The notes under the pieces are model-generated. The model searched no databases and was not told where the DNA came from. It was given only the letters and a program-made list of their open reading frames with translations. Source: a virus. From it: a stretch of 30,860 nt of DNA. Positions 9,359-12,839 of this stretch are shown here, in pieces. The stretch spans positions 1-30,860 of the IMG/VR virus record IMGVR_UViG_3300023278_000040; one strand, given 5' to 3'. How positions within the stretch are numbered: the stretch's first letter is position 1; each line of letters begins with the position of its first letter. The position numbers and the translations under genes are program-made.

Positions 9359-9368
9359 TTGGAGATCA
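9359..9368 (+). promoter_or_regulatory. TTGGAGATCA element, copy 4 (includes ribosome site)
   Basis: This copy ends two bases before the ATG at 9371, closer than copies 2 and 3 (five bases). It follows the hairpin leader and decides the start of the initiator-like gene over the in-frame TTG within the element. Confidence 0.75.
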
Positions 9369-10460: not shown

Positions 10461-10679
10461 ATGTTTTTAGATAATGGTTTGACAAAAGATCAGCAAAAGC
10501 AAATGGATAATGCTTATGAAACTTTAATGTCAGACGTTAAAAACATAAATCCTAAGTTGTATCAAACACTTAGATCAACGGAACTCACAGAAAAAGATGT
10601 TTATAAGCTAATTAAAAGCAATAACAAAAACGTAATAATAAATGATAAAGAGCAATTTGAATTTTTTGGAGATAATTAA
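10461..10679 (+). CDS. Small hypothetical protein
   Basis: This 72-residue protein starts two bases after the previous stop, with GGAG as ribosome site, and overlaps the next start (TAATG). It is soluble, helical and rich in lysine and asparagine. The tail (INDKEQFEFFGDN) is acidic and aromatic, somewhat like the SSB tip and other protein-docking tails. No family is recognised. Confidence 0.6.
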   Translation: MFLDNGLTKDQQKQMDNAYETLMSDVKNINPKLYQTLRSTELTEKDVYKLIKSNNKNVIINDKEQFEFFGDN

Positions 10680-10876
10680 TGAATGTAATAGATATTAGAA
10701 ATCCATTGGAAAAGAAAAGGCAAACATATTTAGCTTTTTACAAAGATGGTATTTATGATGGCATATTAAATCAAAAGCCAGACCCTAGAAATAATTCATC
10801 AGCTTATTATAAAAAAGGTTTTGATGATGGTTTAAAATTGCTAGAGTTAATTAAAGAATATGATCTCGGAGAATAG
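10679..10876 (+). CDS. Small hypothetical protein
   Basis: This 65-residue protein is coupled to the previous gene by a one-base overlap, and a strong GGAGAT ribosome site lies inside that gene's end. The sequence contains two similar pieces, AFYKDGIYDGI and YYKKGFDDGLKLL, suggesting a small internal duplication with a GxxDG core. This is a recurrent motif in small phage proteins of unknown role. No function can be assigned. Confidence 0.6.
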   Translation: MNVIDIRNPLEKKRQTYLAFYKDGIYDGILNQKPDPRNNSSAYYKKGFDDGLKLLELIKEYDLGE

Positions 10877-10877
10877 A

Positions 10878-11168
10878 ATGTATGTGAATAGCGAAGTTAA
10901 AAATAGTTATTATGGTTTAAAAAAGGTTTTTAGAGATTTTAAAAACAAACAAACTAAAATAAAAGATGAAGAAAAGTTTGAAGATGTACCCAAAGAACTA
11001 TCAGATAAAGACAAAGAGGGTTCTTATAAGTTTATTGGTTATATGGATTATTATTTAGGTGTTAAGTTCGATCAAGATAAAGATTTAGAAGTGCAACCAT
11101 CTGGAGTTACTGCTAAAAACAAAAATTACGATTATGCCAATGCAAAGTTTGTAGGGAGTTTAGACTAA
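10878..11168 (+). CDS. Hypothetical protein
   Basis: This 96-residue protein starts at the ATG one base after the previous stop, with CGGAG seven bases ahead; an overlapping in-frame ATG at 10860 is less likely. The protein is soluble and strongly charged, with an N-terminal basic helix (YYGLKKVFRDFKNKQ) and an acidic middle. It is the last gene before the structured intergenic region that precedes the packaging genes. No family is recognised. Confidence 0.62.
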   Translation: MYVNSEVKNSYYGLKKVFRDFKNKQTKIKDEEKFEDVPKELSDKDKEGSYKFIGYMDYYLGVKFDQDKDLEVQPSGVTAKNKNYDYANAKFVGSLD

Positions 11169-11226
11169 TTTAAGAGGTGCAATCATACCATAGGGTTAGT
11201 TTACCCCTGCTCTATGGCTCTTAAAT
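11168..11226 (+). promoter_or_regulatory. Structured RNA element between early and packaging genes
   Basis: ATTTAAGAG (11168-11176) pairs perfectly with CTCTTAAAT (11218-11226), and CCATAG (11188-11193) pairs with CTATGG (11212-11217). The two right arms are contiguous and the left arms are separated by 11 bases, giving 15 pairs with a one-sided bulge. The 18-base loop can form a further GGT/ACC pair. No T-run follows, so it is not a standard terminator. The remaining bases to 11316 are AT-rich leader with no gene. Confidence 0.6.
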
Positions 11227-11316
11227 CAAGCCTAAAATGTATAAAATATAAAAATATGTAGCTTTTTTGGAAATAATTATATAAATCTTAATTACCTAAC
11301 TATGGGGTAAATAGGA

Positions 11317-11622
11317 ATGGCAAGACCAAAGAAATATAATATCGATACTGAAGAAGTTGTAAAGTTAGCATCTTATGGGTGTACAAATAAAGAAATAGCA
11401 GACTTTTTTGGTTGTTCACCAGACCTTTTAGAAAAGAGTTATTCGGAATTTCTTAGAAAAGGGAAAGTTGACGTAAAAATAAGACTAAGACAACTGCAAT
11501 GGGCATCAGCAGAAAATGGTAATGTTACAATGCAAATCTTTCTGGGAAAGAATATGTTAGGTCAGCAAGATAAGATAGAGCAAAATGAATTAGAAGAACC
11601 TTTAGTCTGGTCATCAGATTAA
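11317..11622 (+). CDS. terS: Terminase small subunit
   Basis: This 101-residue protein should recognise phage DNA and bring it to the large terminase. It begins with MARPKKYNIDTEEVVKLA and continues with a helix-turn-helix (GCTNKEIADFFGCSPDLLEKSY, split here as GCTNKEIADFFGC and SPDLLEKSY). A coiled region (IRLRQLQWASAENGN) and the typical FLGKNMLGQQDK segment follow. Length and layout fit small HTH-type TerS. It overlaps terL by one base (TAATG). GGGG lies about nine bases before the ATG. Confidence 0.88.
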   Translation: MARPKKYNIDTEEVVKLASYGCTNKEIADFFGCSPDLLEKSYSEFLRKGKVDVKIRLRQLQWASAENGNVTMQIFLGKNMLGQQDKIEQNELEEPLVWSSD

Positions 11623-12839
11623 TGGCATTAACCAAACCACAAAAAAAAGTAATAAATAACGAAGCAAGATTTAGGGTTCTTATTACTGGTAGAAGATTTG
11701 GTAAAACATTCCTAGCGATTAATGAATTAGCTAAGTTTGCCAGTAAACCTAATCAAAGAGTTTGGTATGTTGCACCAACTTACAGACAAGCTAAAGCCAT
11801 ATGTTGGAATGTATTAAAAGAAAAAATGATATATCACAAATGGGTTAAGAACATAAACCATAGTGATTTAACAATTACATTAAAGAATAATAGCCAGATA
11901 ACACTAAGAGGTAGTGATAATGAGCAATCATTAAGAGGTGTTGGTTTGAATTTTTTATGTATTGATGAGTTTGCAGATGTAAGCCAAGAAGCATGGTATG
12001 AGGTTTTAAGACCTACATTGTCAGACACAAAAGGTCATGCCCTATTCTGTGGAAGTCCAAGAGGGTTTGGTAACTGGTCATATGAACTATTTAAGCAGGG
12101 TGAAACTAACAATGACTGGGCAAGTTTTAAATATACTACTATTGAGGGTGGTAATGTAGATCAAGACGAAGTAGAGCAAGCAAAACAAGATTTAGATATA
12201 AGAACATTCCAGCAGGAATATGAAGCTACATTTGTTAATTATTCTGGAATGATTTATTACAACTTTAATAGACAAAATAATATTATTGAAAAATATCAGA
12301 AAGAAACAGCAATTTTACACATAGGTTTAGACTTTAACGTAGACCCTATGAGTGCTGTAGTTTGTGTTATAATTAATGAGAAAATTATAGTTGTTGATGA
12401 GATACAAATATATTCCTCAAATACCCAAGAAATGTGTGATGAAATAAAGAATAGATACAAAAATAAACAGATAGTTGTTTATCCAGACCCTAGTGCTAGA
12501 CAAAGAAAAACATCAGCAGGGGGATTTACTGATTTAAGTATCTTGAAAAATGCAGGATTTGATGTAAAATGTAAAAATACAGCACCTTTAATTAGGGATA
12601 GAATTAATGCAGTTAATGCAAAATTAAAAAATGTTAATGGGAAAAATAGTCTGTTTATTGTTAAATCTTGCAAAAATGTTATTAAAAGCATAGAACGACA
12701 AATATACAAAGAGGGAACTCATGTACCAGATAAAGATAGTGGGTACGATCATATGAATGATGCTCTTGGCTATTTAATAGAGTTTAATTTCCCACTAAGA
12801 CGTAATTTTGCACCTAGCCAACCTAAGAGGTGGAGTTAA
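11622..12839 (+). CDS. terL: Terminase large subunit
   Basis: This 405-residue protein is the packaging motor ATPase and headful or site nuclease. The Walker A is GRRFGKT (23-29), Walker B is FLCIDEF (111-117) with D115 and E116, and the coupling motif is CGSPRG (143-148). The RNase H-like nuclease domain starts at LHIGLDFNVDP with D237; IVVDEI gives a second acid (D259 or E260) and DHMNDALGYL the last. The overall length is on the short side but complete. It follows terS directly and its last bases overlap the portal start. Confidence 0.95.
   Translation: MALTKPQKKVINNEARFRVLITGRRFGKTFLAINELAKFASKPNQRVWYVAPTYRQAKAICWNVLKEKMIYHKWVKNINHSDLTITLKNNSQITLRGSDNEQSLRGVGLNFLCIDEFADVSQEAWYEVLRPTLSDTKGHALFCGSPRGFGNWSYELFKQGETNNDWASFKYTTIEGGNVDQDEVEQAKQDLDIRTFQQEYEATFVNYSGMIYYNFNRQNNIIEKYQKETAILHIGLDFNVDPMSAVVCVIINEKIIVVDEIQIYSSNTQEMCDEIKNRYKNKQIVVYPDPSARQRKTSAGGFTDLSILKNAGFDVKCKNTAPLIRDRINAVNAKLKNVNGKNSLFIVKSCKNVIKSIERQIYKEGTHVPDKDSGYDHMNDALGYLIEFNFPLRRNFAPSQPKRWS

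Follow-up and report, generated by a model that had tools for sequence, protein, structure and literature searches.

A conserved non-coding element behind the gene upstream of terS in a marine phage, with relatives at gene ends of unrelated phages

The stretch analysed here lies between a 102-aa ORF and terS in the 30,860-nt (30.9-kb) virus record IMGVR_UViG_3300023278_000040, the whole of which is called the window. It is occupied by a conserved non-coding element, and the element belongs to the upstream 102-aa gene, not to terS. Sequence conservation, not pairing, is far above chance. Our preferred reading, which we hold tentatively and at somewhat less than even confidence, places the stretch in a family of 3'-UTR elements that is specific to phages and in most cases joined to an intrinsic terminator; the function that we give it is inferred. 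Direct support comes from parts at nearly fixed spacing, a position few bases from a stop codon, the tie to the upstream gene and the U-tract present at a fixed distance in most other lineages.

The upstream ORF (10860–11168, + strand), whose 3' end bears the element, has no Pfam or PHROG match. The downstream gene is terS (11317–11622, +; PHROG 309 terminase small subunit, E 1.2e-8), so that the location just before terS given in an earlier note on this DNA is correct. It is followed rightwards by terL (11622–12839, +; Pfam Terminase_6N, E 4.9e-11), portal, scaffold, major head, tape measure and tail genes, while endolysin and holin are at 1623–2480. The nearest isolates by TerL are four Pelagibacter phages (HTVC111P, 202P, 026P and 112P, 56–57%), and therefore a SAR11-type host is likely. 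Among the ORFs searched in the window there is neither an RNA polymerase gene nor an integrase. Near endolysin and holin, positions 253–999 match phrog_32327 (function not assigned); the same family is matched by a 158-aa ORF of L405/L272, which adjoins the element in T4-like contigs.

The conserved core is about 60 nt long with nearly fixed spacing and reads GGTRCAATCATAC, about 13 free bases, the C-rich TTTACCCC, and (G/C)TATGGCTCTTAAATC(A/G)AG. The whole element matches R1, a covariance model built from relatives, at 11171–11235 (+) with 83.7 bits (E 5.7e-20), a score to be read with the fact that the model contains the identical sequence. Box 1, defined by alignments and wide-family scans, is GGTGCAATCATAC at 11176–11188 (+; family form GGGTACAATCATAC). 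In many members the C-rich TTTACCCC at 11200–11207 (+) could pair, though with weak support, with the G-rich beginning of box 1. The conserved (G/C)TATGG stretch follows as CTCTATGG at 11210–11217 (+), and the nearly invariant box 2, CTCTTAAATCAAG, at 11218–11230 (+). Positions 11229–11234 (+) are the place where other lineages have a U-tract, 40–46 nt after box 1; it is absent in the window. The window has one copy of the element. An 18-mer from the 3' half, TATGGCTCTTAAATCRAG, is present in 82 viral stretches, with box 1 upstream of it in 74 of the 80 stretches checked and a near variant, by eye, in three more (L199, L218 and L221). L183, L214 and L232 have no box 1; they were rejected as members and taken as coding coincidences. 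A sigma-70 reading of TACAAT inside box 1 is unlikely, since other members have TGCAAT, TACAAA or TGGTAT there.

The earlier note had described 11168–11226 as a bulged 15-pair RNA structure. Its outer left arm, ATTTAAGAG, is at 11168–11176, the first base being the last base of the TAA stop of the upstream gene; the inner left arm, CCATAG, is at 11188–11193, and the two are separated by an 11-nt bulge (11177–11187). The right arm is contiguous, CTATGG at 11212–11217 and CTCTTAAAT at 11218–11226. All of this is found exactly in the sequence: two inverted-repeat pairs (9 + 6) with one right arm, the bulge, and no T-run. As the note states, the stretch is not a simple terminator and not a plain palindrome either, and a conserved non-coding element does occupy these coordinates. 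As a pattern the arrangement is only mildly unusual: when the window was shuffled with its dinucleotides preserved, 12 of 200 versions contained at least one bulged 9 + 6 arrangement. Given its composition, the stretch folds as RNA with only moderate stability; for 81 nt z is −2.05 (5/200 shuffles as stable), and for 171 nt with flanks z is −0.49 (50/200 shuffles as stable).

As a conserved structure the 15-pair fold fails by the very test that the earlier note set for it. In a 53-row alignment of relatives, both helices (at least eight of nine outer pairs and all six inner pairs) are kept in only three rows, which suggests that the fold is nearly private to the window's phage. Paired cells amount to 67.8% versus 67.5% in shuffles, and covariation equals that of shuffles. 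Conservation of the arms is one-sided: the right arm is near-invariant, while the outer left arm varies, so that the left arms with their bulge (11168–11193, +) are present in the window and not conserved as arms. RNAalifold gives no consensus fold in the relatives, and no significant compensatory base changes for a conserved RNA fold were found. That the bulged structure is the functional form is thus very unlikely, even though minimum-energy folding of the window's own sequence gives it. Two other folds were rejected as well. An H-type pseudoknot (box 1 G-strand with TTTACCCC, CATAC with GTATG) pairs in 87.6% of cells through sequence conservation; two pairs change on both sides, and 103 of 500 shuffles equal that. 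A long hairpin of CATAC and GTATG with an inner stem has no support.

The association with the upstream gene is clear from the terS loci. TerS and TerL searches together with the window's own record gave 160 loci, 158 of them with terS and many overlapping on the same contig. The element is upstream of terS in 43 of the 158, representing 24 distinct sequences. When distinct terS upstream regions are counted, 30 of 112 have the element and 82 do not. A homologue of the 102-aa gene lies nearby in, likewise, 30 of these 112 regions; the element is found in 29 of these 30, and in only one of the 82 regions where the homologue is missing. A profile of the 102-aa family finds 76 loci, and downstream of its members the element scored positive in 32 of 57 distinct sequences. 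Of the other 25, four carry a visibly diverged copy (L454, L460, L473 and L489), one (L470) has the element further on in its contig, and in the remaining 20 another gene begins at once, as judged by eye. When an extra gene is inserted before terS (L449, L454, L458 and L489), the element remains with the upstream gene.

These counts contradict the suggestion that the stretch is a packaging recognition site. A cos or pac site bound by TerS would be consistent with the location before terS in the window, but most TerS-bearing relatives are without the element, which argues strongly against such a site. Moreover, most members outside the terS group have, in the available stretches, no detectable terS or terL relative, or have only a 27–28% TerL match about 10 kb away. 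Since the element goes with the upstream gene and also turns up in ocean phages that are unrelated, a role as a DNA-packaging signal is improbable, and we consider a TerS-bound site extremely improbable. The stretch may have a role in antitermination or RNA processing; no result points to either.

If a cos site, a promoter or a translation signal is sought, a better candidate than 11168–11226 is a separate motif, ACCTAACTATGGGGTAAATAGG at 11294–11315 (+), which lies directly before terS, is not part of the element and is a single site in the window. Of 77 distinct 40-nt stretches preceding terS, 56 hold a related motif, compared with a mean of 1.8 after shuffling, and this ACTANNGG-type motif is found whatever else occupies the slot. 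By eye, against the T3 consensus, it resembles a T7/T3-like promoter; that reading was set aside, and no RNA polymerase is among the ORFs searched. The slot before terS has other occupants. In L125, L130, L132, L146–L150 and L156 there is a tRNA-like stretch with a long acceptor-like stem ending in CCA and with anticodon-arm-like and T-arm-like hairpins; among the loci tested, ARAGORN finds no tRNA and Rfam no match. Another structured stretch, GTGGCA...TGCCAC followed by ACCA, is found in L016, L024, L026, L042, L096, L131, L159 and others, and L131 has both this stretch and a window-type element.

Unrelated marine phages also have the element behind stop codons, in endolysin, SNF2-helicase, MoxR, integrase and T4-like contexts. 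At convergent gene ends it comes immediately behind endolysin genes; elsewhere it is close to genes of SNF2 helicases or of MoxR-type ATPases, or beside a tyrosine-recombinase-like ORF (labelled by eye). The neighbouring genes are unrelated to one another (endolysin, integrase, radical SAM, DNA polymerase, RuvC-like and tape-measure-like). A box 1 scan extends this to a wider family sharing GGGTACAATCATAC, also in contexts that look T4-like, with at least 35 non-redundant clusters after removal of coding matches. Among the matches listed there are 112 distinct members, and in 81 of them a + strand ORF has its stop codon between −45 and +25 relative to the start of the box. The 112 include about 12 loci of a UvsW-like helicase ORF in which the box is coding and which are counted as misses; the coding box was seen directly in four of them (L278, L287, L299 and L309) and in the rest by sequence likeness. 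By the element in two viral contigs, L281 and L259, there are minus-strand ORFs that we take, by eye, for look-alikes of a CHASE2-type sensor and adenylate cyclase. Among isolate phages, seven records or regions score no better than noise (best E 0.54), and the isolate-phage collection has no full-length match.

The U-tract stands at a fixed place. A T5 run starts 40–46 nt after box 1 in 23 of 35 non-coding clusters among the matches listed, compared with a shuffled mean of 0.77 and a maximum of 5 over 1000 runs, and in the wider family this placement is that of an intrinsic terminator. A loose box 2 pattern is present in 15 of 62 clusters (matches listed, coding included), always 30–31 nt after box 1. 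The G-strand and C-strand pair in 30 of 35 clusters among the matches listed versus 23.6 in shuffles, a value reached in 2 of 1000 shuffled runs; with longer arms the pairing is no better than for permuted arms, and there is no significant covariation in the wide family. Among class A members outside the terS group, 21 of 30 have T5 immediately behind the motif, while terS-type elements have T5 at the expected place in none of 36 distinct sequences. The window's lineage thus has the boxes without the U-tract, upstream of a same-strand terS. No terminator-like site was found within 10600–11700.

In the 3'-UTR reading the working form would be RNA, and the element would form the 3' end of the transcript of the upstream operon. 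Box 1, often presented by a G/C stem, may be the part that some factor in the infected cell recognizes by its sequence, and transcription would stop at the last hairpin with its U-tract. In the window's lineage, since the U-tract is missing, the element would act as a 3'-UTR mark for pausing, stability or processing, with the polymerase reading on into terS. The window's form would fit a terminator-linked element that turned read-through and was retained for another function. Several observations count against the 3'-UTR reading: neither significant covariation nor a consensus fold is found, the copy in the window is without a terminator, hosts show no conserved target and no copy, and in some lineages the element lies on the other strand from the genes on both sides (L394 twice, L405/L272, L411/L264, L189, L234 and L211). 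An end-of-operon terminator cannot explain such copies without a promoter of its own.

The opposite-strand copies also speak for a DNA site without an RNA role, either bound by a phage or host protein or used in replication or recombination between gene cassettes. Such a site could take either orientation relative to its neighbours, and what is conserved is indeed the sequence rather than the fold. Genes are gained or lost beside the element, and in L394, the only two-copy locus among the matches listed, two direct box 1 copies with T-run-like tails (at 9367 and 10998) flank a two-gene segment. However, the fixed U-tract and the placement at stop codons are features of RNA ends, and we regard a pure DNA site as rather unlikely. 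As for a prophage attachment site, a 14-mer of the element is shared with none of the cellular genomes searched for it, the 18-mer occurs in cellular genomes only without box 1, and no integrase is among the window ORFs searched.

The opposite-strand placements, which would need a promoter of their own, also suit a small trans-acting RNA, that is, an approximately 60-nt 3' end, released or made as its own transcript, in which box 1 pairs with a target in the host or a competing phage. A constant box with an exchangeable 3' half and a U-tract at fixed distance suit this alternative too, which we nevertheless hold to be improbable; searches for a conserved long target were negative. The element is found in no cellular genome searched, in line with the phage-specific reading: the 18-mer, searched in 84,980 bacterial and archaeal species (one genome each, 257 billion bases), occurs in 10 stretches, none with box 1. 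The 14-mer is absent from both strands of all 247 genomes of one order (genomes of 0.7–1.5 Mb), which we take to be SAR11-like from 16S features, and is absent from 398 Pseudomonadota genomes. Out of 97 of the SAR11-like genomes, 59 contain the complement of TACAATCATAC on either strand. No conserved host-mRNA site emerges, as 20 inspected 11-mer sites fall into 16 unrelated loci. Antisense pairing to 16S was rejected: a 12-mer matches SAR11-like 16S with two mismatches, and 31 of 300 permuted boxes do equally well. The 14-mer, 11-mer and 16S tests together indicate no host copy and no conserved long target.

The element is conserved, phage-only in the genomes searched and probably part of a 3'-UTR, and it was found in neither Rfam nor the literature searched. 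At the gathering score, neither the window nor any of 18 relatives matches an Rfam family, and elsewhere only sub-threshold matches occur. As in Rho-independent terminators, a stop codon is closely followed in most lineages by a hairpin-like stretch with a U-tract; unlike these, the element has a constant upstream box at fixed distance, and the window's group has the boxes without a U-tract. Small RNAs derived from 3'-UTRs of bacteria consist of an mRNA 3' end with an intrinsic terminator and a short constant seed. The element would likewise combine an mRNA 3' end, an intrinsic terminator and a short constant possible seed, but differs in having no target found and no host relative, and it is known from sequence alone. 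Non-coding RNA features are described in phages of streamlined marine bacteria, namely a tmRNA and a glutamine riboswitch in Melnitz and Mosig, phages of SAR11/OM43 (PMC9004378); these RNAs differ from the element. No description of the element was found in the accessible text of the literature searched, including PMC9004378, PMC10504331 and PMC7029224, a search mostly of sources outside subscription journals.

One further proposal goes beyond the preferred 3'-UTR reading, and we give it only a small chance: virus-encoded 3'-UTR RNAs of about 60 nt, absent from hosts, might use the constant box GGGGUACAAUCAUAC to act in trans, either upon a host factor or upon phages infecting the same cell, and the terminator would be an interchangeable 3' module. 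Their carriers would be unrelated podo-, sipho- and T4-like phages, as classed by gene content, of streamlined marine bacteria.

With the present analysis a wrong candidate for the packaging site is removed. Unrelated phages of abundant marine bacteria appear to have one non-coding operon-end sequence in common, and its sharing between genomes otherwise little alike points to a common host-cell partner or to exchange between phages. The element offers a testable lead on how such phages set their transcript ends.
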